Assembly: GCA_039679385.1 (NCBI GenBank)
Contig: JBDKVB010000073.1
Coordinates: forward strand, 81,539 to 129,305
Reading direction: 5' to 3'
Length of the DNA stretch: 47,767 nucleotides
Source of the DNA: Armatimonadia bacterium
GTDB lineage: Bacteria > Armatimonadota > Zipacnadia > Zipacnadales > JABUFB01
Each line of letters begins with the position of its first letter. Positions within the stretch are counted from its first letter, which is position 1. The translations under genes and the position numbers were made by a program. Below the pieces are notes generated by a model that saw only the letters and a program-made list of their open reading frames with translations, was not told the DNA's origin and did no database searches. Of the stretch, positions 4,639 to 27,632 are shown piece by piece.

Positions 4639-4681
4639 AACGGTTTATGGTTAAACAACCACATGAGCTCCTGTTTGTCAA
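4639..4681 (-). promoter_or_regulatory. Candidate promoter and LacI operator in the lacI-type/GRE divergent gap
   Basis: On the minus strand a perfect -35 box TTGACA lies at 4681-4676, followed 17 bases later by a weak -10 (TTGTTT, 4658-4653). Overlapping the -10 are two small inverted repeats: GTTTA/TAAAC (4643-4647 and 4652-4656), and the LacI-like odd-centred AAC-G-GTT (4639-4645). This is an AT-rich island in an otherwise GC-rich region. Repressor binding here would block the regulator's own promoter and could also affect the divergent gene. The -10 match is poor, so the promoter call is tentative. Confidence 0.35.
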
Positions 4682-4791
4682 CCCATACCCTCCACCGGGC
4701 ACGAAGGACGGCACCTCGTCCCTGTCGAACTAAGCGCCTCGGTAGCGCCCCAACACAGCAGCCGCAAAGGACGCCTGAAGGAGTCCTCAGG

Positions 4792-6975
4792 ATGCCCGTC
4801 GTGTCCCTCCCTGAGATCGTGGCCATACCTGGTCTGCCCGAGCCTTTCTCCCTCGACTTGCCGCCGAGCCTGGTAGCTCTTCGTGAGGAGGCCCTTCAGG
4901 TTCAGCAAGCACCTTGCCCGGGGCAGCCCGAACTGCGCCTCTCCGACGCTGTCGAGTGGGCCGCGCACACCCCGGAGGAGGACTGGCTCCTATGGCGCGC
5001 CCGGCGGTGTGCGGGGCGACTGCGGTGCATGCGCTTGAAGGTCGAGCCCGGCGAGTTGATCGTCGGCAAGCCTGACTTTCGCCCTCCCACGCCTGAGGAA
5101 CTCGAGCCGCTTCGGGCTGCCGATGAGGTACTCAAGGACGTGCCGCCCTTCCCTGGTGGCGACCCCGGGCATTTCCACCCGAACTTCGAGAAGCTCTTCC
5201 GCGTCGGAATTGGTGGTCTGCTCGCGGAAATCGACCAGCTTCGGGCCGCGCTGCCGTCCCACGATGAGCGCCAGACGTTCTACGCGGCCTGCCAGGTCGT
5301 GACCGAGGCTCTCTCCGACTTCGTGCTCCGAGCCGCCGAGGCCTGTGCGCAACTGGCGCAGGAGGACCCCTCGGACGCCAGCCGCTGGCACGAACTCGAG
5401 TCGATCTGCCACCACATCGCCACCGAACCACCCGCAACCTTCCACGAGGCGATCCAGCTCATGTTCCTGACGCAGATCGCCCTGTGGTTCGCCGAGGACC
5501 ATCACCTCACCACACCGGGGCGAATGGACCAGACGCTGCGCCGGTTCTACGAGGCCGATGTCGCGGCCGGACGCCTCCATGCTCGCCGGGCCTTCGAGCT
5601 CATCAGTTGCCTCTACATCCACATGAACCGCATTCTGTGGCCCGGGTCAGCGGTCTCCGTCCTGGTTGGCGGTCTCGACACCGAGGGCAGGGACGTCACC
5701 AACACACTGACTTACCTGTGTCTGGCCGCCCGGCAGGCGACCCATCTCGTCTACCCGACCGTGGGCCTGGTGTGGCATCCCGGGAGTCCGGACGAGTTGC
5801 TGGACTATGCCGTGAGGATGATCGCCACCGGTGTCGGCGACCCGGCGATCTTCAACGACGAGGTCATCTCCGCCGGACTGAGAGACCACGGCGTTGCACC
5901 CGAGGACTGCCGCAACTATATGAACTCGACCTGCGTCGAGATCAAGGTCTGCGGAGCCTCGAACATGTGGGTCACGCAGCCCTACTTCAACTGCGCACAG
6001 GCGCTGCTTGAGGTGATGCAGGAGGCCTCGCTGGGCGTCACGCCGCAGCCGGAGTCCTTCGAGGCACTGTGCAAATTGGTGAGGACACGCCTGGCCCAGC
6101 GTATCAAGGATGCGGGCGACCATCTCGACCGCGTCTGGCACGAACGTGAGACCAAGGGCTGCTTCCCACTCGCAAGCTGCCTCGTCGACGACTGCCTGGC
6201 GCGAGGTATGGACTTCGACCGCGGAGGCGCCCGCTACAACTGGGTGGAGAACTCCTTCGTGGGGTTAGCGAACCTGGTGGACGGTCTCGGGGCGATCCGC
6301 GAACTGGTCTACAACACCGGAGAGCTCACGATAGCCGACCTCACCCGGATTCTGGAGGCCGACTGGGAGGGGCACGAGGTCCTGCGCCAGCGCATCCTCA
6401 ACACGTTGCCCAAGTATGGCAACGACGATTCCCAGGCCGACGAGTTGGCTGCGGAATGGACCCAGTTCCTGGTGCAGGCCACTGAGGCATGCCACGTAGG
6501 TCTGCACCGATACGTTCCTGGCTTTTTCTGCTGGATCCAGCACGAACGGATGGGCTCGCAGACCAAAGCGACGCCGGATGGTCGCCATGCCGGGTTCCCG
6601 CTCGCCGATGGTGCCGGAGCCGCCCAGGGACGCGAGAAGGCCGGCCCGACGGCCTCCGCTCTTTCGACGACCTGCTGGTCGCATCGGCCCATTCTCGGCG
6701 GACTGGTTCACAATGCCAAGTTCTCTCGCAGCCTGCTGCGGTCAGCCGAGGCGCAGAAGGCCCTCCGTGGTGTGATCGAAACCTACATGCAACGCGGCGG
6801 CTTTGAGATCCAGGTCAACGTGGTCGGCCGCGAGACCTTGCTGGAGGCCCAGGAGCATCCTGAACTCCATCCTGACCTGCTGGTGCGCGTCGCCGGGTAC
6901 TCAGACTACTTCGTACACCTCAATCGCAGCATGCAAGACGAAGTCATCGCGCGGACGGAACACGAGCTGGCCTAG
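4792..6975 (+). CDS. Glycyl radical enzyme (pyruvate formate-lyase-like), Cys-x-Glu eliminase type
   Basis: A 727-residue glycyl radical enzyme. The ATG at 4792 follows AAGGAG (4778-4783) by 8 bases; the frame is open upstream but unlikely to be translated. The active-site loop is NSTCVEI with C381 and E383. The C-terminal radical loop is RVAGYSDYF with G702, 25 residues from the end, the family's usual distance. GGLDTEGRD, GDPAIFND and GGARYNW blocks are also typical. Pyruvate formate-lyase has Cys-Cys here; Cys-x-Glu is the arrangement of dehydratase/lyase members such as glycerol and propanediol dehydratases and choline lyase. It is therefore more likely an anaerobic C-O, C-N or C-S bond-cleaving enzyme. 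No radical-SAM activase is in the window. The membrane protein starts 46 bases downstream. Confidence 0.92.
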   Translation: MPVVSLPEIVAIPGLPEPFSLDLPPSLVALREEALQVQQAPCPGQPELRLSDAVEWAAHTPEEDWLLWRARRCAGRLRCMRLKVEPGELIVGKPDFRPPTPEELEPLRAADEVLKDVPPFPGGDPGHFHPNFEKLFRVGIGGLLAEIDQLRAALPSHDERQTFYAACQVVTEALSDFVLRAAEACAQLAQEDPSDASRWHELESICHHIATEPPATFHEAIQLMFLTQIALWFAEDHHLTTPGRMDQTLRRFYEADVAAGRLHARRAFELISCLYIHMNRILWPGSAVSVLVGGLDTEGRDVTNTLTYLCLAARQATHLVYPTVGLVWHPGSPDELLDYAVRMIATGVGDPAIFNDEVISAGLRDHGVAPEDCRNYMNSTCVEIKVCGASNMWVTQPYFNCAQALLEVMQEASLGVTPQPESFEALCKLVRTRLAQRIKDAGDHLDRVWHERETKGCFPLASCLVDDCLARGMDFDRGGARYNWVENSFVGLANLVDGLGAIRELVYNTGELTIADLTRILEADWEGHEVLRQRILNTLPKYGNDDSQADELAAEWTQFLVQATEACHVGLHRYVPGFFCWIQHERMGSQTKATPDGRHAGFPLADGAGAAQGREKAGPTASALSTTCWSHRPILGGLVHNAKFSRSLLRSAEAQKALRGVIETYMQRGGFEIQVNVVGRETLLEAQEHPELHPDLLVRVAGYSDYFVHLNRSMQDEVIARTEHELA

Positions 6976-7021
6976 CCGGCGTTGACGATCTGAGGGTTCC
7001 CATCCCTGTGGAGGCAAGCCG

Positions 7022-8518
7022 TTGCACGCTCTGTCACTGGCACAGACTGAACCCGACGAAGCACCCAGGGCACCCTCGCCCACGTACCAGGAGGCGGAGC
7101 GTTGGCGGCTGCGGCGTGCCTCGTGGATGCTGGCCCTGATACTGGTCTTCGCGACCTGCTACCAGTTCCATGTCGGCGGCGGGTGGAACGTGATGACCCG
7201 CATCGCGTTGATCCGCGCCATCTTCCACGACCACACACTTTCCATCAACCGCAGCCAGGAGCGCACGGGCGACAAAGCCGAGTACCCACCCGGCAGTGGC
7301 ATCTACTACTGCGACAAACCCGTGGGCGCTCAGATCCTCGGTTTCATCGGCTATGTGATCGGCCATGACGCGGCGTGGTGGACCCTCAACAGCCACTACT
7401 TCGCCCTTCTCAGCGGCGCGGTCGTCGCCACCTTCTTCGCCTCGGCACTGCCGGCAGTCGTCCTCGGTCTGCTCATGTTGCGACTCCTGGTGGCGATGGG
7501 ACAGCCGGTGCGCCGGAGCGCCTTCGCCGTTCTCCTGGGCATTCTGGGCACGCTGCTGTGGACCTACGCCACGGTATTCTACGGTCACGAGGCAGCAGCA
7601 AGCCTCGGTATGATCTCCTTCCTCTGCGCCTTCTTCGTGCTGCACGGCGGTCGTCGTCCCTGGCTGCTGGCGTTCCTCGCGGGGATGTGCGGGGCCTGGG
7701 CGACGATATCGGAGTTCCCTGCGGCCTTCACCTGCGCCGTCGTCCTGATCTACCTGCTCCGCGCCGGTCTGCGCTATCTGGTGCCCTTCGTTCTGGGAAC
7801 AGTCTGGCCGGTGGCGGTCCAGCTCCTGTATAACCAGGCCTGTTTCGGCAGCCCCTTCCGCTTCGGCTACATGTACGAGGCCAACAAGGACTTCGCGAAC
7901 CCGTCTGGATGGGTCTCCTATCCTCGTCTGAAGCCGCTGCTGGCCGTCTGCTTCTCCACCGACAAGGGCATCTTCTTCCTCTCACCGGTCCTGATCTTCG
8001 CCTGCTGGGGCCTGTACCTCCTGGTACGCAACCCCCGCTGGCGCCGGGAAGGAATCGTCGCTGCCACGATGGTTGTCGGCTTCCTGCTGTACAACGCCGG
8101 TCACTACATGTGGCAGGGCGGCGTGTGCTTCGGACCCCGACACCTCGTGAGCATGCTTCCCTTCCTGATGCTGGGGCTGCCCTTCGCGTGGGAGGGGCTC
8201 AGTTCGCTAGGGCGAGCCGTCTATGTCGCCTTCGCAGCCTGGTCGCTGCTGGTGTCCTTCGCCGCAGTGACGACCATCGCTGAGCCCGCCATGCGGCTGC
8301 TCACTGGTGAACCGGGAGCCGTCGAGGCCCTGGTGCGCCTGAGTGTGGGCATGCTGGACTGGCCGAACCTGGGGATGTGCCTGGGCCTGCCGGGATGGGC
8401 CTCGATTCTGGCCCATGCGCTCCTGCTGAGTCTCCTGACCTGGTGGATGGCCTACACGCTGAGGCCCCGGCCGGACGAACCGACCGGGGCCCCTGAGGCT
8501 CTGCAGAAGGTTGTCTAG
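7022..8518 (+). CDS. Multi-pass membrane protein, GT-C glycosyltransferase-like
   Basis: A 498-residue integral membrane protein with roughly 11-12 hydrophobic segments; the first is at about residues 33-50 and the last ends near 485. The start is TTG at 7022 with GGAGG (7010-7014) 7 bases upstream. After the first membrane segment a loop contains YYCDKPVG, resembling the DKPPG loop of GT39-like GT-C enzymes. Later YNQACFGSPFRFGY and GGVCFGPRHLVSMLPF also match that group of poorly characterised proteins. It would transfer a sugar from a polyprenyl-linked donor, but the acidic catalytic pair is not obvious. A transporter role is less likely from these motifs. Its TAG stop shares CTAG with the convergent GH2 gene. 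Confidence 0.6.
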   Translation: MHALSLAQTEPDEAPRAPSPTYQEAERWRLRRASWMLALILVFATCYQFHVGGGWNVMTRIALIRAIFHDHTLSINRSQERTGDKAEYPPGSGIYYCDKPVGAQILGFIGYVIGHDAAWWTLNSHYFALLSGAVVATFFASALPAVVLGLLMLRLLVAMGQPVRRSAFAVLLGILGTLLWTYATVFYGHEAAASLGMISFLCAFFVLHGGRRPWLLAFLAGMCGAWATISEFPAAFTCAVVLIYLLRAGLRYLVPFVLGTVWPVAVQLLYNQACFGSPFRFGYMYEANKDFANPSGWVSYPRLKPLLAVCFSTDKGIFFLSPVLIFACWGLYLLVRNPRWRREGIVAATMVVGFLLYNAGHYMWQGGVCFGPRHLVSMLPFLMLGLPFAWEGLSSLGRAVYVAFAAWSLLVSFAAVTTIAEPAMRLLTGEPGAVEALVRLSVGMLDWPNLGMCLGLPGWASILAHALLLSLLTWWMAYTLRPRPDEPTGAPEALQKVV

Positions 8519-10812
8519 ACCAGTCCGGCCTTACTAAGCCACGCCCGGTACTGCTCAAGCTCGAAGGGTGGATTCCCGGCAAGGTAGTGGCTGAGGCTCT
8601 TGCCGCTCTCCGTCTCCCACTCAATCACGTACATCCTCTTCCACGAGGCCGAGAAGGGCACGCGACCCAGATTAGTGGTAGCATCCGCCGGGGCCACTCC
8701 CTCGCCCTGGGCCATTACCTCGTCAGTATCCACATCGCGCACTCGCCACTTCAGCCGCAGGTCTTCCCGGCCGTCATTGCAGGCGACGACGTCCTGTCCC
8801 CAGTTGCCAGGTTCCCGCAGGGCCACCAACAGCGGCTCCTGTGCCCGCTTGATGAACCCGTAGGCGAGCTTCTTCACGAAGTAGTAGTCGACGATGGCAT
8901 CGGAGAACTGCGGCCACCCGTCGATCAGGTTCCACCACAAGATGCCCGTGCGGCGCCACTTGGCACAGCGGAACATCTCGATGAAGAACTTCTTCGCCTC
9001 AGCTTGCGAGGCCTGACTGGCGAAGGCGAAGTCGTCGAGGTTGTCCGGCACCGTCCCGAACAGCTCGCGAATCTGCTTGGCCATGAGCTCGATCCGGTAT
9101 TCGTACTGGTTGACGCCAGGGACTGGGTTGCTGGCGTGCAGCAGCCATTCCTCGTTGTTCTGATAGGGCCACACCTTCTCCGGCGAGATGAAGCGGCGAA
9201 GGGACTCCGGCGCGGGGCAGCCGTGATAGCCCATCTCGCTGGCGAAGTGACACAGCGACCGCGTGTAGAAGTTGCTCTTGTAGTAGTCCCGGGGCCCCCA
9301 GAGATGGTTCTCGGACAGGTACTCGGAGGGCTGCTTGACGGCCTCCTCGTCGATGTAGGGCGAGCTCCCCAGATAGGGCCGCGTTCCATCCTCCTCAGCC
9401 ACCACCTGGGGCAGCACCTTCCGCGTGAGGACGTTCGTGTTCGGGTCAATCCCCAGGCCCTTGTAGAAGGCGTCGCACTCGTTATCGCCCGACCACAGCG
9501 CAATGCAGGGGTGCTGGCGCAGCCGCTGCACGACCTTCCGGGCCTCCTGCTCCAGTCGCTTCTGAAACTCGGCGTCCTGCGGGTACAGAGTGCAGGCAAG
9601 GGCGAAGTCCTGCCAGATCAGAATCCCCTTGCGATCGCAGATCTCGTAGAACAGGTCATCCTCATACACGTTGCCACCCCAGCAACGGATCATGTTGCAG
9701 CGCAGGTCCTCGGCCATCTCCAGCATCTGCGGGATACGCTGCGCATCGCGGGAGTGGTAGGCATCCGCAGGCACCCAGTTGCTGCCTTTGGCGAAGAGCT
9801 TCTCACCGTTCACGCGGAAGCAGAACTCACCGCGCCCGAGTTCATCCGTGGTGCTGGTGCGATCCAGCGCCACCTTCCGTAGCCCGTGCTCGAACTGCAT
9901 CTGGTCGATCTGCACACCGTTCTTGTACATCGTCGCGGTAACGGTATACAGGTTCGCCTCTCCCCGACCGGCGGGCCACCACAGCTTCGCCTTGCTGACA
10001 TGGGCATGCATCCGGCCGGCCTGGAACAGCATTCGCGACCGCGCCTGGAACTCCGAATCCCCACAAACGCCCTGGAGGGCGATCTCGTACACGTCCTCCG
10101 GCTTCCCGATGGTCTTCGCGTCATAGCACAGCAGCAGGTCGGCACTGCTGTGGGCCGTCGATACGGACTGCGTCTGGAGGTACACGCGCTCTAGCCTCTC
10201 AACCGGACGCAACTGCAGCCGCACCGGACGCCACAGCCCCGCTGAGATCGCCCGGGGCATGATGTCCCAACCATACATATGCGGGGCCTTGCGCACATAC
10301 AGCGAGTCGTAGTTGCTGCCCAGAGCGCGCAGATGCGGAGGATAGTCGTACTTGCGTGCCTCCTCGAGGGCCGGACGCAGATGCACGAAGACCTCGTTGT
10401 CCTCCTTGAGCTTGCCGCCAACCGGGAACACATGCTCAACCAGCATGTTGTCGCACTCGCCGATCAGCTCGCCATTGAGGTAGATCTCGGCGAAGCAGTC
10501 GACGCCCTCGAAGACCAGTTCGGCGTCCATACCCTCCACCTCGGACGCCTTGAAGCGACGCCAGTACCACACGTGAGCCGTCTCATAGCGAAACAGCTTC
10601 GCCATGTTCATCCCATAGAAGGGTTCTTCGATGATGCCGTTGGCCTGTAGGTCCAGCTCGAAGTTGCCGGGCACCTGAGCGCGAAGCTCCTGGAGACCGG
10701 CGGCCTGCAGCTCCTCCTGGCATCGATACTGGCCCTGGGGTTCTCCTTCGACGTAGGCAAAGGACCACTCACCGCACAAGTCCACCTCGGGTTGCTCTCT
10801 GCGGAAACGCAT
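8515..10812 (-). CDS. GH2 family glycoside hydrolase, beta-mannosidase-like (shorter form)
   Basis: A 765-residue GH2 enzyme. The start at 10812 (MRFRREQPEVDLCGEW) follows GAAGGAG by 9 bases; an 88-codon upstream extension is antisense to the intergenic region and rejected. Order: sugar-binding jelly-roll domain (about 10-190), Ig-like domain (about 200-310), TIM barrel with acid/base E445 in SGDNECD and nucleophile E526 in SEMGYHG, then a C-terminal Ig-like part. The architecture and QVPGNFE/WYWRRF segments place it near the beta-mannosidases, but the catalytic blocks differ from the canonical NGNNE and SEFGFQ seen in the second GH2 gene here. No signal peptide. It is divergent from the GH43-like gene, suggesting shared control. 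Specificity uncertain. Confidence 0.85.
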   Translation of the reverse strand: MRFRREQPEVDLCGEWSFAYVEGEPQGQYRCQEELQAAGLQELRAQVPGNFELDLQANGIIEEPFYGMNMAKLFRYETAHVWYWRRFKASEVEGMDAELVFEGVDCFAEIYLNGELIGECDNMLVEHVFPVGGKLKEDNEVFVHLRPALEEARKYDYPPHLRALGSNYDSLYVRKAPHMYGWDIMPRAISAGLWRPVRLQLRPVERLERVYLQTQSVSTAHSSADLLLCYDAKTIGKPEDVYEIALQGVCGDSEFQARSRMLFQAGRMHAHVSKAKLWWPAGRGEANLYTVTATMYKNGVQIDQMQFEHGLRKVALDRTSTTDELGRGEFCFRVNGEKLFAKGSNWVPADAYHSRDAQRIPQMLEMAEDLRCNMIRCWGGNVYEDDLFYEICDRKGILIWQDFALACTLYPQDAEFQKRLEQEARKVVQRLRQHPCIALWSGDNECDAFYKGLGIDPNTNVLTRKVLPQVVAEEDGTRPYLGSSPYIDEEAVKQPSEYLSENHLWGPRDYYKSNFYTRSLCHFASEMGYHGCPAPESLRRFISPEKVWPYQNNEEWLLHASNPVPGVNQYEYRIELMAKQIRELFGTVPDNLDDFAFASQASQAEAKKFFIEMFRCAKWRRTGILWWNLIDGWPQFSDAIVDYYFVKKLAYGFIKRAQEPLLVALREPGNWGQDVVACNDGREDLRLKWRVRDVDTDEVMAQGEGVAPADATTNLGRVPFSASWKRMYVIEWETESGKSLSHYLAGNPPFELEQYRAWLSKAGLV

Positions 10813-16580: not shown

Positions 16581-19406
16581 CTAGCGAGGCAGCGCCAGCC
16601 CGCGGTCGATGACCTGGTTCTGCTTCGAGAGCAGAGGTCGGTACTCGACGACGCTCGGGGGCACTGCGCTCAGCTTCGCCGTCATCTGGTTGACCTGAGT
16701 GCCGCTGAACTGCTTGCTGGGCGCATCGAAGAGCGGGTCCTGCCCCAGCTTCTGCAGCGCCGAGGCCAGGGCTCCGCGCAGCTTGTCTGCCTGGGCACTG
16801 ATCGCTGCCATCCGGCCCTCGCCCTGGGCGATGGACTGACGCAGCGCTTGCAGTTCAGAGCGCTGGTCATCATCCAACGACTTCGCACCCAGTGCGGTGC
16901 CCCCGATCGTCTTGTCCAGAAAGGTCGTACTGGGCAGCTTGAGGATGCCCGTCGACGTCATCATGTCGGGTCGGAACAGCTTCCCACTGGCGGCTAGCGC
17001 AGCAGAGGGAATCGGCCGTGCAATGGGAGCACCGAAAGGCTGGCGCACGGTGGGCCTCGTCATGCCCGTTCCCATCGTCATCCCCATCCCTGTGCCTGTC
17101 GTAGGAGGTCCGGCAGCTCCCAGCTTGGCCTCGAGCTCCTGCGACGCCTCAAGTGTCCGCGCCTGCAGCCGCGCGTACTCATCCATCAACTGCGACGACC
17201 GCGAGAGCAGCACGGTTGGCGTCTCCTGGCCGGTCAGTTCCGACGTCGAAACCATCGCTGTCTGCGCCGCACCGAGCGCCAGTCGCGGGCTCACCTTGGA
17301 AGGACGCGCCACCGCGGAGATTGGCAGCGGCAGGATGTCCTTCAGCAGCACGGCCACGATCGGGATGAAGGTTGCGGTCTGTACGGGCCGGATCTGATAC
17401 ACAACATCCACCGTCGTCCGGCACTCCACAGAGAAGAAGAGCATCCAGGTGCGATGCTCAACGCGAGTCAGCAGGTTCCTCTGGTGCGTCCCAAGGCCGA
17501 AGTTGCCGCTGCGCAGGTACCGGTCGGTAACGGTCTGGTTCAGCGATGTCGATCCATCCCGGCCCGTGGTAGTGAAGGACACCTCGACCCAGTCCCGCAG
17601 GTTGTTGGTGCTCAGCACCTGCGTGGTCTGGTCGAAGCGTAGCTCACCCTCACCGCCCGGCAGTGCCCAGCCTCCGGCCTGCGGCATGCGGGTCGATGTC
17701 TGATTGGTCCCATCGCGTCCGACCACGTTCAGCACCACGTCCTGCAAAGTGCCGAAGCCCAGTGCAAGCGCGCTAGCCAGAGGAGGTACCACCTCGCGTC
17801 GGATCGCCACAGACAGCACCTCGGCCACCACACCCGAGACCGATGCACCGGCTGGCGGCTTCAGCGTCCGGGTCACGTAGCTGGTCTGCATGTCGTCATG
17901 CACCGCGACGATCACCTGCGGCTGCGGATCGCCCGTGCGCCACACAATCGACTGGTCAACCGTGCGGCTGTTCGTGGCTCCCGACCATCCCGAGGACAGC
18001 CACTGGGAGTAGACCTTGCCACCGTTCACAAACAGCTCCAGCCTCACGCGCGTCCGGTCCTCCGAGTCATTCTCCGTGGCGACGACGGGGATGTGGGCCG
18101 TTGACCCGGTCCACGTCACCGTTCCCACACTCAGGGTCGGTCGCGACTGCGGCATCTCGGGCACCGTAAAGCCGCGGTTGAACAGGATCGCCTTCAGCTC
18201 ATGCTTGAGCCCATAGCTACGGTGCTCGAGCCAGTAATGGACGATGTTGTCCGGCGAGCCAAGGTAGGACTCATGGCTGAAAGCGTGAGGGTGGTACTCG
18301 GAGAAGATGCTCCAGATCTTGTCCAGGTTGAGGTCGGAGATCCCGTCGTAGAACATCTCATCGCCGGGGAGGGCGCTGACCTGTTCATAGCGTTTCTCCC
18401 AGCCGGTGGGATCGTAGATGTCCCACATGCAACTGGCAACTTCGCCCTCCACCTTGGAGCGGTCGGCCCCGGCGGGAATGCCCGCTCGCCAGCTGGCATC
18501 CTGGGTTTCGAAGTCGTAGTAGTTACCCCAGCGCGGTTGCTCTGTGACCTCGGCCATGAACTCCGCCCAGGCCTCAGACCAGGCATACTCGCGGTAATCG
18601 GACACCTTGTCGAGGGTGTGACTACCCGCATTGCCGTGCATCCAGCCCGGCCAGGTGAAGAACTCGTCGGCCATGATTCCATGGCTCAGCTCGTGCCGGG
18701 CGGCGTTGGAAGCCCAGGGGAGGTTCCCGGAGCCGAAGTACAGGTCTGGGTACTTGATGTAGTCGAGGATGCCCACGTAACTGGCGACATTCGTGTCTTC
18801 GGGGAAGCTGACTTCCTTCTCCTCGAAGTTGCCCTCCGACAGAGCGTCAGACACCAACTGCAAGCGATGGTCGGTCAGCTCGCGGCAGAGGAAGAACGCC
18901 CGCCAGCCGTGAGTAGCGTCTGTCCGGTCGGAGTTGTCCAGCGCCGCTACTCCGCCGACCTGGAAGTGGTCGGTGTTGGCGCTTGGGCCGCCAATGTTGA
19001 GGTTCTTGGTTGTCGTCGCGCTGTCGTGGGAGAAGTAGCTACCGGACACCGCCTGGTAGCCGTCGATCTGCATATAGTGGCTCTGGACTTCGAGCTTGTT
19101 GTTGACCTCGGCGAACACAATCAGGTACGTGTCATAGCCATCGCGCCACCAGGCGTTCCCTTTGGTCACCCGGTACGTGCCGGAAGCGTCGGTGCTGCCC
19201 TCCACGTCGAAGGTGTCCCAGTCGTTGTACTCGCCTATCACCAGTCGAACGCGGGCGTTCTTGAGCGGCTCGTAGATGTTCTTGGTCGAGTTCCAGACCT
19301 TCACGTCCCCCGTCATCGTGACTGTGGCTCGAGCCGGCAGGACACCGGCAACGAAGGTCAGCGTAAGGACAGCAGCTACTGCCATCATCGTCATCGGCCT
19401 GGGCAT
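16581..19406 (-). CDS. Secreted HExxH metallopeptidase-like protein with transthyretin-like and coiled-coil regions
   Basis: A 941-residue exported protein; the signal peptide spans about 1-27 (cleavage near ARA). GAGGAGGGG lies about 8 bases before the ATG at 19406. Residues about 30-140 resemble a carboxypeptidase-regulatory/transthyretin-like fold (KNARVRLVIGEY, STDASGTYRV). The catalytic part has HELSHG (H238, E239, H242), and 36 residues after H242 SEAWAEF offers E278 as third zinc ligand, the gluzincin pattern. Then DGISDLNLDKIWSIF, an Ig-like stretch (about 425-520), a less clear middle, a helical region near 735-770, a Gly/Thr/Met-rich linker (GTGMGMTMGTGM), and a final heptad-like helix (about 850-895). 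It probably cleaves extracellular or surface protein. It sits 91 bases downstream of the cohesin-bearing gene and likely shares its transcript. Confidence 0.7.
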   Translation of the reverse strand: MPRPMTMMAVAAVLTLTFVAGVLPARATVTMTGDVKVWNSTKNIYEPLKNARVRLVIGEYNDWDTFDVEGSTDASGTYRVTKGNAWWRDGYDTYLIVFAEVNNKLEVQSHYMQIDGYQAVSGSYFSHDSATTTKNLNIGGPSANTDHFQVGGVAALDNSDRTDATHGWRAFFLCRELTDHRLQLVSDALSEGNFEEKEVSFPEDTNVASYVGILDYIKYPDLYFGSGNLPWASNAARHELSHGIMADEFFTWPGWMHGNAGSHTLDKVSDYREYAWSEAWAEFMAEVTEQPRWGNYYDFETQDASWRAGIPAGADRSKVEGEVASCMWDIYDPTGWEKRYEQVSALPGDEMFYDGISDLNLDKIWSIFSEYHPHAFSHESYLGSPDNIVHYWLEHRSYGLKHELKAILFNRGFTVPEMPQSRPTLSVGTVTWTGSTAHIPVVATENDSEDRTRVRLELFVNGGKVYSQWLSSGWSGATNSRTVDQSIVWRTGDPQPQVIVAVHDDMQTSYVTRTLKPPAGASVSGVVAEVLSVAIRREVVPPLASALALGFGTLQDVVLNVVGRDGTNQTSTRMPQAGGWALPGGEGELRFDQTTQVLSTNNLRDWVEVSFTTTGRDGSTSLNQTVTDRYLRSGNFGLGTHQRNLLTRVEHRTWMLFFSVECRTTVDVVYQIRPVQTATFIPIVAVLLKDILPLPISAVARPSKVSPRLALGAAQTAMVSTSELTGQETPTVLLSRSSQLMDEYARLQARTLEASQELEAKLGAAGPPTTGTGMGMTMGTGMTRPTVRQPFGAPIARPIPSAALAASGKLFRPDMMTSTGILKLPSTTFLDKTIGGTALGAKSLDDDQRSELQALRQSIAQGEGRMAAISAQADKLRGALASALQKLGQDPLFDAPSKQFSGTQVNQMTAKLSAVPPSVVEYRPLLSKQNQVIDRGLALPR

Positions 19407-19497: not shown

Positions 19498-22400
19498 CTA
19501 CGGACCGACCTCGATTGCCCCCCCGGTTGCGCTGATGACGGCAATCCGACCGTTGATGGCCGTCTCGCCCAGCATGAGCTTGGCGGTGGCCGACCTGGGA
19601 GTCGCACTGGCGAAGCTGACGGCAAGCAGACCGCCACGAACCGGCAGCGCCTTGGCCCCACTGAGGGTGACCAGTGCACCGTCAGCCCTTGGTGTCACCT
19701 GGAGGTTCCAGCCCAGTGACGCGAGCGGAGTACCGGCCAGGCTGAATCCTGAGACCTTCAGCAGGGCAGGGCTGTACTTGAGCACGAACTTAACGCCGTT
19801 GACCGTGGCGCCACCCTTCACTTCGTAGCTGATCACTACCGGCCTTCCTGCTGTGAGGCTGCCGGAGGGCAAGGTGAGCGCAAGTGGCGTCGCTAGCGTC
19901 ATGGTCGCTGCACCACCGGGCAGTGTGGTCCCTGTCCTCCCGGCGATTGTGCCGGCCGTGGCGCCGATTGTCGGCCCGGCAGTTGTCCCGGTCGTGGGCG
20001 TCGGCAGCGTAATCGGCGCCCGCACTGTACCAGTGGTCGGGGTCGGCGTGAGTGTGCCTGCTGCCGTGCCCGTCGTCGCACCGGTCGTTGCGCCTGGCTT
20101 GATCGTTGGCGTCGTCGTGATTGGGCCCGGGAGCGTGAGGCCTGTCCGACCTGTTGGCGACGTGATGGCGCCCGTCGTCGGCGTGCCGGTCGTCGCCCCA
20201 GCCGTGGTCCCCGGCTTGACCGTTGGTGTCGTCGTAATCGTACCCGGAAGCGTGAGGCCCGTCCGGCCGGTCGTCGTCGCAGCAGTCGTGCCCGTTACCG
20301 GCGGCGCCGTCGTGCCGCCCGGCGTCGTGCGGCCTATTGTGGGCAGGCCACCCGGCAAGGTCAGCACCGGTTTGGTCCCCATGGTGCCGGTCGTGGTCGC
20401 ACCGGTCACCGGAGGCTTTGTCGTGGCCGTCGTCCCAGTGAGGGTGCCCGGGGTCGTTCGACCTGGCAGGATCACGCGCGTACCTGTTGCGATCGGCGTC
20501 GTTCCTGTGCCGGTCGTCGGTGTGGTACCAGTGCCGGTCAGGGGCGGTGTTACGGTGCCGGTGCTCGCAGTGGTGCGCGTGCCGGCGGTTCCCACCGTCG
20601 AGGGCAGCCTGGTGCCCGTCGTTGCCAGTGTCCCAATCGTGGCACGTGGCGGTAGGGTCCCCAAGGTCGGAGTGACTGCTTTCGCCGCCTGTGTCGCAGC
20701 CGACGTGATGGCTGTAGATAGCGACGAGGCTACAGGGATCAGCCGGCCCGTCGGGGTCACAGTCGAGGTAGCGAGACCTGCCGCGCCCTTCGAGAGCGCG
20801 CTGGCCACTTCAGGCGTGCGCAGCACGCCGGGGAGACGCTGCAATCCAGTGCCCGCCTCCTCGACGGTCAGCGACTTGGTGACCACTTGCTGGTTGAGGC
20901 CGCCGCCAACGACCTCAAGTACATGCGCACCCGGTGTCGTCGGTGTCCACAGGAACAGCGCCTTGGTCGCCTCCCCGCCGGTGGTGGAGCCTAGCATCGT
21001 GCTGGCAACCTCGTTGCCATCCACACGAAGGGTGACGGGACCGCGGAGCAGTTTGACGGCATCCTGCGTCAGCTCAACGCCCACTTCGACCTGCGAGCCC
21101 ACCTTCGGCTTCGGCGGCTTGGGGATGAGAACCAGGCCCTTAGGCAGCTTCAGCAAAGGACCAGGGATACGCCCCGGCCTGATGACAGAGCCGCCGGAAC
21201 CAGTCCCAGTACCCGTCCCCGTTCCCGTTCCTGTGCCTGTCCCCGTTCCAGTGCCAGTGCCAGCGCCCGTCCCTGTGCCAGTTCCTGTCCCGGTACCAGT
21301 CCCCGTTCCAGTGCCGGTGCCAGTACCAGTACCAGTACCAGTACCAGTACCAGTACCAGTTCCTGTGCCTGTGCCCGTGCCTCCGCCGACAAGCGACGAG
21401 GCATCGGCCACCATCTTGTTGTTGTCCTCGTTGGGGTCGCTACCGGTAGTGCGACCGGCCACTACACCGAGGGAGGCAAGGTTGGCAGGCACCGTCCACG
21501 GCGGCGTGACCGCGTCAGCATTCCCGCTTGCCGGGACCGATGCCGCGACCGCTGCGTCGTGCGTGAACTGCCACTCGGTGCCGCCCGCCAGGAGATAGCT
21601 GAAGTCCACCAGCAAGTCATTGACCGCACCCTCGGCAGAGGGGTTGTGCAGCGATGCCGCGATCGTGACTTGCTGGCCCTCCTGAAGCTGGCCGGAGGCG
21701 ATCTTCAGTGCGGTCACGGACACGTCGGAGCTTGCGGCAACCGCCGGCGTCGTCCCACCGGTGGTCGTTGTGGTTCCGGTCCCTTCCCCCGTCGTGCCGG
21801 TGGTCGTTGTGCCGGTACCACCCGTCGTGGTACCCGTTGTCCCGCCGGTCGTGGTTCCGGTTCCGCCTGTGGTCGTGCCCGTGCCGGTGGTAGTCTCACC
21901 CGTGGTACCGGTCGTCGTGCCACCGGCCGCCGCGGTCGAGACGCCACCACCCGCGAGATCAGCAGCGGTCACCGCCAGCGCATCGTTCGAGGCGTTCGCA
22001 TCGGCCCCCGTCGACAGGGCCACGGTGACGCCAACCTGCTGCACACCTGCCGGGACCGTCCACGCCGGACAGGGCACAGTCACCTGTGCGCTTCGTGCCA
22101 CTGCCGTCAGCAGCGGCTCCGCAGTGATAAACTGCCAGTTAGCGCCATCCACTGTGTAGCTGAAGTCAACCTGCACCTGCGGCAGGTCCGTAGCCAGTGC
22201 CGAGTTGGCCACCGTCGCCGCGATCACGACGGACTGCCCTGCCGCGAAGGTTCCCGAGCTCAGTGCAAGCTGGGTGACCCCGACATCGACGACGTCGCCC
22301 GCAGTACCTGTCGTTCCTGTCGTCCCCCCGGTGCCGGTCGTTGTGGTTCCACCAGTGTAGTAGCCGCCCGATTCCGTCGAAGCCGTCGCGCCCGGAATCG

Positions 22401-24354
22401 TGGTGCCGGGCGCCATTCCGAGTTGCTCACCAAAGACGCTCTGCAGGATTCCGCCGGCAGGACCACCGACCTGCGAGATCAGGTACTGCCCAACGGCGCT
22501 CACCAGCTTCTCAACGATGCCCGGCTTGTCTTCTTCCGTGGCCACATACCCGCCAGTGCCCTCGGGCGTCGTTCCAGCCGGCTGACCTTCCCCGGTCACA
22601 GGTTGACCCTCGGTCGAGGCCACCACGGGCGCACCACCGGCCAGAGATTCCGGCGTCGCGCTGAGCAGGTTGTTCTGCTCGTTGGCCTCTGTGACGCCTT
22701 CGCGAGAGACCCATGCCCCGACCTCGACCACACCTTCAGGCACGACCCAGGCAGGAGCCTCGACCTCCACCTGTCCGCCTGCCGGGATCGTCGTCATGAC
22801 TGGCGTGGCATTCGCCAACTGCCAGTCCTGCGTGCCCGCCGTGCCATAGACGAAGCTCACCGCAGCGTTAGGCACTTCGGCCGCCGAGGGGTTCGAGATC
22901 GTGGCCTTGAGGACGACCTCCTGGTTGGGCTGGATCGTCCCTCGCACCAGCGCCAATCCCGTGACGGCCAGATCCGCAGGCCCTTCGGCGGGAGCTGTGC
23001 CCGGAGCCTCGGTCGCCGTCCCTGTCGGGGCCTCTGTGGGAGTTGTCGTCGGGGTCTCGGTAGTGGCTGCCGGTGGTAGCTGGGCAATGCCTACGCCCTT
23101 GGCCGCCAGGTCCTGTAGGGCGGTCGCCACCGGTTTTGGCGCCGGTGCGCCGGCCGCATCGAGGGCGTTGATGCCCATCGCAGCCTCCACGCGGCCTACC
23201 CACCAGCGGGCATCGGCGTCGGCCTCCGGATTCCACAGCGCTGCCGCGACCTTCGGCCCGGCGTCCTGACCGGTCCATGCCGCTACCCGGTCCGCAACGT
23301 CAGCGTCTGGAGGCTCGGGCGCTGCACTGTCCACATCACAGCTCCAGGAGAAACCGGCGAAGTTGGTCGTCTGCGCCAATCCGGAGGCCACACTGGCCAG
23401 CAGCGACAGACCCCACTCGCTCTGCTGGGTATGAGTGTTGAAGGCCGTGGAGTACCCGGTATCGAGCAGAATCTGGTTCGCCGGGTAGTCGGTTGCCAGG
23501 CGCTGCAAGGTCTGGGTCATCTGGTCGGGGGTGCCCGGCGAGAGTGACCCGGCGTGCCACTGCAACACGACGCAATCCACTGCCCGGCCCGCGATGGTCG
23601 CATCGATAGTCGGCCGCAGGTCACCGTAGGCCGCGTCAAGATCCTCGGCAGCGAGGTCACCAGGCGCGATCTTGCCCCGCGACAGGAGCGCGTAGTCCAT
23701 CGAGACGGCGGCCTGAACCGGCGTCGGAGTGAAGGCGGCGCCCAGTACCGAACGCTCCGCAGCGCCAATCGCAGCCCGGACCATCAGTGCCAAGGACATC
23801 GGATCTGCAACCGCGCCACCCTTGGCGGCAAGCAGGTTCAGCGCCGGTCCGAGACGGTACGCAGCGATACGCCGATACGTCGTCGCCTCGGCCCCTTCTG
23901 CGGGTTTCAACTTCGTAGCCAGGGCCTTGACCAGCGCCTCGATCGTCCCCGCCACCTGCGTCAGGCTCTCGGCCTTGTCGAGGTCTGTTAGGTTCACAAT
24001 CAGATGCGGAGCTGGGGCTCCAACACCTGCCGCCCACGAACCTAGGTTAGCGAGCTTCGTGGCCGTGGCTTCAGCATCGTCCCAGGGCGAAACGGCCACC
24101 ACAAGCGAGTTGTACCCGGCGCCCGCGATGCTCGTCCGGTAGAAGGTGTCAAAGGCCTCGCTTACCCCCTGTCGCGCGAAGGCCGGGTCGACACTGGGGA
24201 AGGCGGCCCCATCCACATTCGAAGTCCAGGTCCGGCTTTCCAGCGCCACCACTTGGAAGAGCCCCTGCGCATGGCAAAGCGTCAGGCTACCCGAAAGGAG
24301 CAGTGCCAGCGCGAGAGAAGCAAACCACCCTGTGCGGCCCATTCTTCTCACCAT
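19498..24354 (-). CDS. Large secreted protein: barrel-like N-domain, three CARDB-like domains, Gly-Thr linkers, C-terminal cohesin-like domain
   Basis: A 1,618-residue exported protein. The signal peptide is about 1-29 (LTLCHA/QG); an alternative ATG at 24342 would shorten it by 4 residues. Residues about 30-430 form an alpha/beta domain with barrel-like strands ([28 protein letters not shown]) that I cannot assign. Three CARDB-like Ig domains follow, about 460-568, 688-800 and 877-985, each with a DVxVTxL start and an FxY strand. They are separated by Thr/Gly-rich linkers, including a Gly-Thr dipeptide run at about 989-1053. Another Ig-like domain is near 1080-1166, then a Thr/Pro/Gly-rich region to about 1485. 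The last 130 residues resemble a cohesin ([25 protein letters not shown]). No dockerin or anchor motif is seen. Probably a surface or extracellular scaffold or adhesin. Confidence 0.72.
20101..20277 (-). repeat. 117-bp imperfect direct repeat in the Thr/Pro-rich region
   Basis: Two copies of about 50-60 bases, beginning near 20101 and 20218, are offset by exactly 117 bases (39 codons). Both encode the peptide RTGLTLPG followed by ITTTPT and a KPG element. The in-frame spacing indicates internal duplication in the linker of the large secreted protein. Confidence 0.7.
21200..21389 (-). repeat. Hexanucleotide tandem repeat encoding (Gly-Thr)n
   Basis: About 30 in-frame six-base units encode alternating Gly and Thr, interrupted by a single Ala (GAG) unit. 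Most units differ by synonymous changes, but 21321-21360 is a perfect CAGTAC-phase repeat (more than six units). The unit length of six keeps the frame whatever the copy number. A second, less regular Gly/Thr-rich tract lies at about 21755-21930. Confidence 0.9.
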
Positions 24355-24640: not shown

Positions 24641-25282
24641 TCAGCTCAGCTCCAGCACCGCATATCCCGGGAAACGCCGCACCCCGACGATATCGTGCCT
24701 CACAGGCCGGCGAAACAAGGGCCCGTCCAGGACAAGGGTGTGGAACTCGCCACCTTCGCCGGCCACATCCACCCCTACAGACCTCAGCCTGGCGAGGAAT
24801 CGCCGGGTATACCGCTCACCCAGGAATTCCTCCGGCAGGGCATCCGTGCGGACCGTCACCACGATCGCCTCATACCCGGCCGCAAGAAACTCCTCCGCGA
24901 GCGCTTCGTGGGCCTCATGCCACAGGGGAAGCTCTGCCTGCATCCCGGCCCGCGAACAGACCATCTCCTCCCACGCCCGGTGCTCGTCAAGGTCAAGGTC
25001 CCCGAAGACGCCGGTGGAGACGCCCTCCGATGCCATGCCCTGCAGCGCCTCGACGAAGACCCGTTCGTAGTCGTCCCACGAGGCCACTCCATAGCGCAGG
25101 ACCGTCTCCAGAGCCTCAGCCTGGTCCTCGAGGATCCGGCGAGGGATCCCATGGGACCGTGAGTGCGTACCCTCCTCTGCCAGCATGCTCAGCAGGTACT
25201 GCGGCTTACCCCACTCCTCAACGGCCCTGTGCAGCGCAAGACAGCTATCCTTACCCCCACTCCACGAGCACACATACTGCAT
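24641..25282 (-). CDS. Dph6-like ATP pyrophosphatase (diphthine-ammonia ligase family)
   Basis: A 213-residue soluble protein of the adenine nucleotide alpha-hydrolase fold. The PP-loop SGGKDS is at about residues 8-13 and binds ATP, activating a substrate carboxyl by adenylation. The C-terminal EGGEFHTLVLDGPLF block is the signature of the Dph6/COG2102 group, and GDLDLDEHRAWEE lies in the middle. GGAGA precedes the ATG at 25282. Archaeal and eukaryotic members amidate diphthine on elongation factor 2, a substrate bacteria lack, so the bacterial substrate is unknown. Its start faces the second glycyl radical enzyme across a 184-base gap in which I see no convincing promoter. Confidence 0.88.
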   Translation of the reverse strand: MQYVCSWSGGKDSCLALHRAVEEWGKPQYLLSMLAEEGTHSRSHGIPRRILEDQAEALETVLRYGVASWDDYERVFVEALQGMASEGVSTGVFGDLDLDEHRAWEEMVCSRAGMQAELPLWHEAHEALAEEFLAAGYEAIVVTVRTDALPEEFLGERYTRRFLARLRSVGVDVAGEGGEFHTLVLDGPLFRRPVRHDIVGVRRFPGYAVLELS

Positions 25283-25466
25283 CGGTTCTCTCCGTTCTCA
25301 CTGTCACAGACAGATTCGGTACGCTCGGTGCGGGTCCTGCTACCCGTTACACTGCTCTGTACGCCCTGAAGCAGGCAGGTGTTCGGCCACCTCCGTCGAA
25401 TCACTCCCAGAGACCTCCCAGGCAGGCTCTGCCCGCACGCCTGGTACCCAGCGATCAGGTGACCAG

Positions 25467-27632
25467 ATGAGGGATCCGCGGCCGGACACCAAGATACTTG
25501 AGCAGCTTGGTGAGTTCTTCGCAGCAGGCTACTTCGAGAACCCCGCCGCAGGACCCATGGAGCGCTGGTCGCGAGCTCTGCGCCGACGTCTCGAGGCACG
25601 TACACCGATGGCCTACGACGGAGGGCTGCTCTACCCGTGCGGTGTGAACAGGCCTCCAGCCCGGGTTGTGCAGGACCGTTTCGTGTCGTTCTCCTACAGC
25701 TTCACTTGGTCCTTCAATGATCAGGCGCTGGCGCAGGCCTTGACCGAGGAACCCGATCCCGCGACGCAAGAGACCCTCGAGGCCCTGCGCGACGCAATGG
25801 TCGAGGAACGCCGGCGCCTTCGCTTCCTTCCTCCTCCCCACACTGTCGGCGGGAACGGCTACACTCACAGCATCCCCAACTACGGCCGTGTGCTGCGGGA
25901 GGGACTCAACGAGCATGCCCGGCGCGTGGCGGAGGGTCTGGAGGAGGCGCTGGAGCGCGAGGACGAGGAGAGGATCGCCTTCTACCGGGGGCTTCAGGAC
26001 GTGCTCGCGGGCATCCAGGCCTGGCACCGATCCGTCTGCGGGTATCTCGAGTCCTGGGCGCCCACGGACCAGGCTGCTGCAATACGCCGTGACGAGCTTG
26101 CAGCCGCTCTTCACCAGGTCCCCTTCTCACCTGCCAGGACCTTCCTCGAGGCCGTCGTCGCCTACAACTTCGTCTACTACCTCGACGACTGCGACAACCC
26201 GGGGCGTCTCGACCAGGAGCTGCAGCCCTTCTACGAGGCCGACCGCAAGGCAGGCCGCATCGACCGGGAGAAGGCAGCCGCGCTCATCGCTGCCTTCGCC
26301 GACAACGTTCGCACCGTCGCGGGATGGAGTGCGGCAATCGGCGGCACCACCCCGGACGGCGCCCCCGCCTACAACGATGTGACGCTGATGCTGCTGGAGG
26401 CTGCTCACGGTCGCTACCGCCCAAGTCTCGAGCTTCGCGTTCGCAAGGACATGCCCGACGAAGTCTGGGACGCCGCCCTGGAGGCCGTCACCACCGGTTC
26501 CGGCAACCCGGCCTTCTACAACGAGGAGGCCTACCTGCAGAGCCTCCACGATGCCGATCTCGGCCTCAGCGCGGAGGATGCGACCCGCTGGAATGGCGGC
26601 GGCTGCACGGAGACCATGATCCACGGCTGCTCGAACGTCGGGTCACTCGAGGCCGGCCTCAATCTGGGCGTCGTGCTCGACCAGTCCCTCCACCGCCACT
26701 TACCGGCGGCGACCTCCTTCGACGAACTCCTTGGGACGGTCAAACAGGACATCGCCACCGAGACTGAGCGACTGGTGGCGCAGATGAATGAGCATCTGGC
26801 CGCCAAGGCTACCTGGCTTCCGCAGCCCATGCGCAGCCTGCTCATCGATGACTGCATCGACCGCGGCATCGACTTCAACTCCGGCGGCGCTCGCTACAAC
26901 TGGAGCGTCGTGAACCTTGCAGGCATGACGAACCTGATCGACTCCCTGGCTGCGGTGCGTGAGGTGGTCTTTGATCAGGAGGAGCTCTCGGGGGCTGAGC
27001 TGCTCTCGGCGCTCGAAGCCAACTTCGCGGACCGCGAGGGCCTGCGCCGGCGGCTGGCGCACTGCGCCGCCTTTGGCAACGACATCGAAGCAGTGGATAC
27101 GCTTGCAGCCGACGTGGCGGGCTTCGTCTACGAGCAGTTCCGCCGTCACAAGCAGTTCCGTGGCGGGCGTTTCCTGCCGTCCTGCATCATGTTCGTAACC
27201 TACGCCGATGCGGGTGCCCGAGTGGGTGCCACGCCTGATGGTCGCCGGGCGGGCGAGCCACTGGCTGACTCCATCGGTCCCAGTCGCGGACGCGACACTC
27301 ACGGACCGACGGCCATGCTGCGCAGCGTAACGCATCTTCCCCTCCACCTGGCAACGGGCACACCGGTCCTGAACCTGCGCTTCTCACGGCACTTCCTCAC
27401 TCGGCCGGAGGAACGCCCGAAGGTACGCGCCCTGCTGGAGACCTACTTCGCCCTCGGCGGGATGCAGGTCCAGCTCTCGGTAGTCGATCGCGCCGAGTTG
27501 GAGGACGCGCTGATCCATCCCGAGCTTCACCGCGACCTGATCGTCCGCATCGGCGGCTACAGCGACTACTTCGTCCGCCTGTCACCCGCCCTGCAGCAGA
27601 CGGTAGTGGAGCGCACTGAGTACGCCCTGTGA
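25467..27632 (+). CDS. Second glycyl radical enzyme (PFL-like), Cys-x-Glu type
   Basis: A 721-residue glycyl radical enzyme. The ATG at 25467 is chosen because the upstream open frame (from 25185) overlaps the divergent Dph6-like gene; CAGGTG just before it is a weak ribosome site. The active-site loop is GGGCTET with C380 and E382, and the radical loop is RIGGYSDYF with G697, 24 residues from the end. GIDFNSGGARYNW and GATPDGRRAGEPLADS are family blocks. It aligns along its length with the 4792-6975 enzyme but is clearly divergent, with its own N-terminal region. The Cys-x-Glu pair points to an eliminase or dehydratase rather than pyruvate formate-lyase. No activase is nearby. A hairpin follows 26 bases after the stop. 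Confidence 0.9.
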   Translation: MRDPRPDTKILEQLGEFFAAGYFENPAAGPMERWSRALRRRLEARTPMAYDGGLLYPCGVNRPPARVVQDRFVSFSYSFTWSFNDQALAQALTEEPDPATQETLEALRDAMVEERRRLRFLPPPHTVGGNGYTHSIPNYGRVLREGLNEHARRVAEGLEEALEREDEERIAFYRGLQDVLAGIQAWHRSVCGYLESWAPTDQAAAIRRDELAAALHQVPFSPARTFLEAVVAYNFVYYLDDCDNPGRLDQELQPFYEADRKAGRIDREKAAALIAAFADNVRTVAGWSAAIGGTTPDGAPAYNDVTLMLLEAAHGRYRPSLELRVRKDMPDEVWDAALEAVTTGSGNPAFYNEEAYLQSLHDADLGLSAEDATRWNGGGCTETMIHGCSNVGSLEAGLNLGVVLDQSLHRHLPAATSFDELLGTVKQDIATETERLVAQMNEHLAAKATWLPQPMRSLLIDDCIDRGIDFNSGGARYNWSVVNLAGMTNLIDSLAAVREVVFDQEELSGAELLSALEANFADREGLRRRLAHCAAFGNDIEAVDTLAADVAGFVYEQFRRHKQFRGGRFLPSCIMFVTYADAGARVGATPDGRRAGEPLADSIGPSRGRDTHGPTAMLRSVTHLPLHLATGTPVLNLRFSRHFLTRPEERPKVRALLETYFALGGMQVQLSVVDRAELEDALIHPELHRDLIVRIGGYSDYFVRLSPALQQTVVERTEYAL

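Follow-up and report, generated by a model that had tools for sequence, protein, structure and literature searches.

The C-terminal end of a 1,618-residue exported protein is best explained as a divergent, non-cellulosomal cohesin-like docking module, a reading that we hold to be probable without being secure, and its partner would be either the dockerin of an S8 protease whose gene lies outside the window or a ligand other than a canonical dockerin. The gene lies in the window, i.e., the whole stretch of 47,767 nucleotides that was analyzed (G000:C73:81539-129305), which comes from a 5.6 Mb draft genome of 184 contigs, 96.6% complete (hereafter G000). The source organism falls in Zipacnadia, a class of the Armatimonadota known from anoxic sediments. 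Exported S8 proteases are described as common in this class, while cohesins and dockerins are nowhere mentioned in its description (PMC10290634). The window was rich in sugar genes, with sulfatases, GH2, GH31, GH42 and GH106 proteins, LacI and two glycyl-radical enzymes. The latter two are pyruvate-formate-lyase-like (window 4663-6975 and 25185-27632, both on the + strand) and belong to one sugar-utilisation region. Adjoining the giant gene, an exported 941-residue protein (window 16581-19406, - strand) had a significant match in neither Pfam nor NCBIfam; based on its HELSH motif it is possibly a zinc peptidase. All phylum comparisons below span 291 Armatimonadota genomes.

The open reading frame of the giant protein was found as the first-pass annotation had described it, and its features are listed in Table 1. 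The protein is probably extracellular. Its N-terminal domain was predicted, with moderate confidence, as a TIM barrel of glycoside hydrolase-like fold, the AlphaFold2 model (pLDDT 61, pTM 0.66) fitting best to GH10, GH53 and GH1 barrels in Foldseek and VIA-align (Z ≤ 16.4, rmsd 4.1, 270 residues aligned). The first CARDB domain scored just over the Pfam cut-off, and that of a relative in genome G001 reached 29.7 bits. Within the dipeptide linker, some 60 residues form a near-perfect Gly-Thr run, a kind of repeat that tends to vary in length and to be misassembled. The end domain had previously been placed at 19498-19890. That location held, with the best boundaries lying 3 bases past the earlier edge.

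Table 1. Features of the giant exported protein (window coordinates) and of the dockerin/PEP-CTERM gene pair (locus coordinates).
Feature	Position	Strand	Basis
Gene of the 1,618-residue exported multidomain protein	19498..24354	-	ORF; same-layout relative in G001
Signal peptide, residues 1-29	24268..24354	-	Inspection: positive charges at the start, then a hydrophobic core and CHA-Q
Predicted N-terminal TIM-barrel-like domain, residues 30-420	23095..24267	-	AlphaFold2; Foldseek/VIA-align, nearest are glycoside hydrolase folds
CARDB domain 1, residues 460-574	22633..22977	-	Pfam PF07705, 22.9 bits vs cut-off 22.7
CARDB-like repeat 2, residues 689-803	21946..22290	-	Inspection: internal repeat of domain 1; missed by Pfam alone
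CARDB-like repeat 3, residues 876-991	21382..21729	-	Inspection: internal repeat of domain 1
Gly-Thr dipeptide repeat linker, residues 992-1082	21109..21381	-	Sequence
Ig/CARDB-like beta domain, residues 1083-1168	20851..21108	-	Inspection only; not matched by Pfam
319-residue Thr/Gly/Pro/Ala-rich linker (34% Thr), carrying the end domain	19894..20850	-	Composition
Cohesin-like C-terminal domain, residues 1488-1618 (~131 residues)	19501..19893	-	Profile, profile-profile, predicted fold
Dockerin protein + PEP-CTERM candidate cohesin-like protein	L025 5777-10403 (G000:C45); L105 3809-8453; L106 1-2793; L114; L117 2964-5146; L118 332-4122		Conserved order

The Pfam cohesin model PF00963 (cut-off 24.1 bits) gave no match to the end domain, either by hmmscan at E ≤ 1 or in the search of the source genome, and the domain is therefore called cohesin-like rather than a member of PF00963. 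Searched as a single sequence, the end domain had no significant match in Pfam, NCBIfam or the PDB sequences, and a genome-wide search with a generic cohesin profile missed it at a threshold of E ≤ 1, probably because of the first filter of that search and the biased linker, since the isolated domain scores well. When 32 cohesins that Pfam recognizes in the phylum were made into an HMM, the end domain scored 24.2 bits and its G001 relative 21.4 bits. Of 1,000 shuffles of matched composition, none exceeded 10.5 bits; the reversed sequence scored 0.4, and the protein's own CARDB domains did not rise above 0.9 bits. Profile-profile comparison with hhalign gave a probability of 94% and a score of 45.1. 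None of 200 column shuffles scored above 21.0, and a CARDB control reached 26.1 over 35 columns only. The reference cohesin profile is genuine, as it retrieved 39 distinct solved cohesin sequences with a best E-value of 6e-18. These scores, together with the presence of all three motifs cited in the first-pass annotation, bore out its call of a cohesin-like C-terminus.

An HMM built from the end domain and its G001 relative retrieved two cohesins of a multi-cohesin protein from genome G063, in register with Pfam, and also a protein from genome G116 whose chain later includes a dockerin-like repeat. The G063 protein (L076 2-6592) has about eight tandem Pfam cohesins, and a Pfam dockerin was not found in that genome. 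The G116 protein (L078 1951-4230, - strand) combines on one chain an N-terminal cohesin-like domain and the dockerin-like repeat, the latter recognized by inspection. Three further matches from the various searches were rejected: one in G112 (E 0.001) to a short beta domain below cohesin length, one in G219 to an SMC protein, and one in the source genome (G000:C147, E 0.16), which sits in a sugar-enzyme-like ORF and was attributed to chance. Other cohesin types use contact residues different from those of type I. In type I cohesins, Asn37 and Asp39 contact the Ser/Thr motif of the dockerin (PMC5772552); at the equivalent of these two 1OHZ positions, the window domain has Gly and Lys and the G001 relative has Ala and Ser.

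The contig search for relatives of the end domain found nothing beyond the G001 copy, and its structure was therefore predicted from two sequences. The AlphaFold2 model (pLDDT 65, pTM 0.60) was a sandwich of 9–10 strands at moderate confidence, in line with a nine-stranded cohesin-type jelly roll, and its best PDB matches were almost all cohesins, so the outcome that the first-pass annotation had named as refuting its call did not arise. The sequence motifs fell on or beside predicted strands (KFVLKYS, E34-43; LLKVSGF, E49-56; LLAVSFA, E94-100; IEV, E131-133). Foldseek ranked cohesins at positions 1–16, with CBM3 chains low in the list, and the first 21 rows of VIA-align were cohesins, led by 2jh2 (Z 9.1, rmsd 3.3, 108 residues aligned), although a Z of about 9 only slightly exceeds the 7–8 that unmatched models often reach. 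Each of these sequence- and model-based lines is moderate, yet taken jointly they leave little doubt that the predicted end domain belongs to the cohesin fold family.

The G001 relative, of 2,012 residues, had the same layout as the giant protein, with an end domain at the equivalent place (41% identical to the window domain) and a longer Pro/Thr repeat in place of the Thr-rich linker. For the N-terminal domain, the only other clear match among the 291 genomes was in G183, in a protein that terminates in CARDB repeats and lacks a cohesin, which implies that the cohesin end was gained or lost locally. In the source genome, the end domain was single-copy.

The window itself was devoid of dockerins, as had been noted before: Pfam recognized none in 20 further gene-sized ORFs, an HMM made from dockerins of the family scored at best 5.6 bits (E 0.46) in the window, and none of the window's glycoside hydrolases carried a dockerin by either search. 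The first-pass annotation had proposed that the partners either lie elsewhere or are replaced by another ligand. Exactly one dockerin over the cut-off was found in the source genome, outside the window on G000:C45 (next candidate, E 1.75), so that a partner elsewhere is possible; this dockerin has a conserved cohesin-like neighbor of its own, and the two proposals are about equally likely. The dockerin comprises two repeats of GDVNSTRTVNTLDLM type and sits within an exported S8 protease of 1,292 residues that also has a prodomain, an Ig-like domain and a FlgD-like end, and related dockerins occurred in the relatives G001, G002, and G003. Over the phylum, dockerins were detected in 128 of 291 genomes versus Pfam cohesins in 36. 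Dockerins were found in 23 of these 36 genomes versus 105 of the 255 others, a weak association (Fisher p = 0.012, relatedness ignored), and no Pfam dockerin was found in the remaining 13 genomes with Pfam cohesins.

Directly downstream of the S8 dockerin protease, and on the same strand, was a gene for a PEP-CTERM protein. On L025 the protease occupies 6525-10403, its dockerin falling at about residues 790-850, and the PEP-CTERM protein occupies 5777-6535. The order of a dockerin gene followed by a PEP-CTERM gene was conserved in six genomes (G000, G001, G002, G017, G037, and G040) representing three families of the order; the dockerin-bearing partner was an S8 protease in G000 and G002, and dockerin proteins were likewise present in G017, G037, and G040. 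In G003 the pair was interrupted by a contig end, and G008 had a PEP-CTERM protein with no adjacent dockerin. When six outer domains of the PEP-CTERM proteins were aligned and compared with the cohesin profile, the match spanned nearly the full length (probability 88%, score 40.4, shuffle maximum 20.5) and was weaker than that of the window domain. Compared directly with each other, the profiles of the two domains gave a probability of only 0.5–0.9%, so the domains are linked only via the general cohesin profile. Exosortase genes were present in all seven genomes searched. In the source genome, the exosortase was found as two overlapping pieces (G000:C176:2-529 and G000:C91:101753-102106, both on the - strand), one of them at a contig end, which are probably one gene broken by assembly. 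From sequence comparison, the PEP-CTERM protein is thus a candidate exosortase-anchored protein with a cohesin-like outer domain, and the gene order suggests that the dockerin's natural partner is this protein and not the giant one in the window. The 98% complete genome G002 retained the pair of dockerin protease and PEP-CTERM gene while a window-type cohesin was not detectable, indicating that the dockerin protease and the window cohesin are not inherited together. The gene pair is a better lead than the window domain. A search of a limited literature found no paper combining PEP-CTERM, cohesin and dockerin, which is no proof of novelty.

In the explanation that we favor, the end domain would be a divergent cohesin-like module of non-cellulosomal type that, tethered by the long, flexible Thr-rich linker, works in protein–protein docking and holds another exported protein to the giant protein. 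That partner may be the S8 protease dockerin or, about equally likely, a ligand that is no canonical dockerin. No other dockerin is recognisable in the genome, which speaks for the former; the different inheritance seen in G002 and the absence of the type I contact residues speak against it. A more elaborate version, which we regard as rather unlikely, is a small surface-display system in which the exosortase-anchored cohesin-like protein holds the S8 protease, and a second, diverged cohesin, on the giant protein, can take over that protease, or a different exported protein, and carry it to the target of the TIM-barrel and CARDB domains.

The strongest competing explanation, less probable than the docking reading but to be taken seriously, is that the cohesin-like fold is real and binds carbohydrate or another non-dockerin ligand, or forms a structural or surface-attachment end, while the single dockerin serves another system. 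The unconserved type I contacts, the cohesin-like gene conserved beside the only dockerin of the genome, and the 13 genomes with a Pfam cohesin and no Pfam dockerin are consistent with this. So are the CBM3 chains in the Foldseek list, cohesins and carbohydrate-binding modules having related jelly-roll folds. As a general sorting or attachment signal, however, the end domain would not be expected in a single copy per genome. It is improbable that the domain is a generic Ig-like or CARDB-like beta-sandwich unrelated to cohesins, whose likeness reflects nothing more than beta strands in a Thr/Gly-rich protein: the lack of a significant family in single-sequence searches and the moderate confidence of the model would fit, but the protein's own CARDB domains, the shuffles and the reversed sequence all failed against the cohesin profile, and the leading structural matches were cohesins, not Ig folds. 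A diverged cellulosome-type scaffoldin organizing multi-enzyme complexes, suggested by the long linker and cohesin-like domain amid glycoside hydrolases and sulfatases, is very improbable and was rejected on counts, barring many unrecognisable dockerins, as the giant protein has a single cohesin-like stretch instead of several cohesins per chain, the genome has one dockerin and the window's glycoside hydrolases have none; with one cohesin in the protein and one dockerin in the genome, there is no cellulosome.

The source genome offers a very small test case, in which a single dockerin goes with two cohesin-like domains and a conserved pair of neighboring genes ties dockerins to exosortase anchoring. 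The Pfam cohesin model misses both cohesin-like domains, so that 'orphan' dockerins are probably overcounted in phyla like this one.

Noncellulosomal cohesins and dockerins have reportedly been reviewed by Peer et al. in 2009. Many organisms that lack cellulosomes nevertheless have lone cohesins and dockerins, of mostly unknown function, and in ANME archaea CARDB, cohesin and dockerin domains are reported to be abundant and to co-occur (PMC5244752). A cohesin homologue has also been described, by profile comparison only and with no known dockerin, beside the Ig-like domains of the animal membrane protein TMEM132 (PMC6030884); the likeness is one of description, the window protein being bacterial and exported. 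The window domain could be aligned over most of its length with the type I cohesin Coh2 of CipA (1ohz), with a common YDP/YSP strand and a terminal GG-x-x-x-V strand, but it differs at Asn37 and Asp39, and the tandem cohesins and CBM were not found in the giant protein. The best structural matches (Z 7.8–9.1) were the cohesins of Clostridium perfringens GH84 NagJ (2jh2, 2o4e, and 2w1n) and GH33 (2vo8), which are likewise single non-cellulosomal cohesins on large exported multidomain proteins, although only ~9–15% identical in sequence to the window domain. The partner of the C. perfringens cohesins is a FIVAR-dockerin module. The non-cellulosomal cohesin of Archaeoglobus fulgidus (2xdh) matched the predicted fold with a Z of 7.3 and is similarly a lone cohesin in an organism without cellulosomes; its dockerin partner is usable and has been applied in surface display (PMC12484212), whereas the window domain has a candidate partner only. 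Compared to these systems, the window domain adds one new, diverged case to the already known non-cellulosomal cohesins, and the addition is real but modest.
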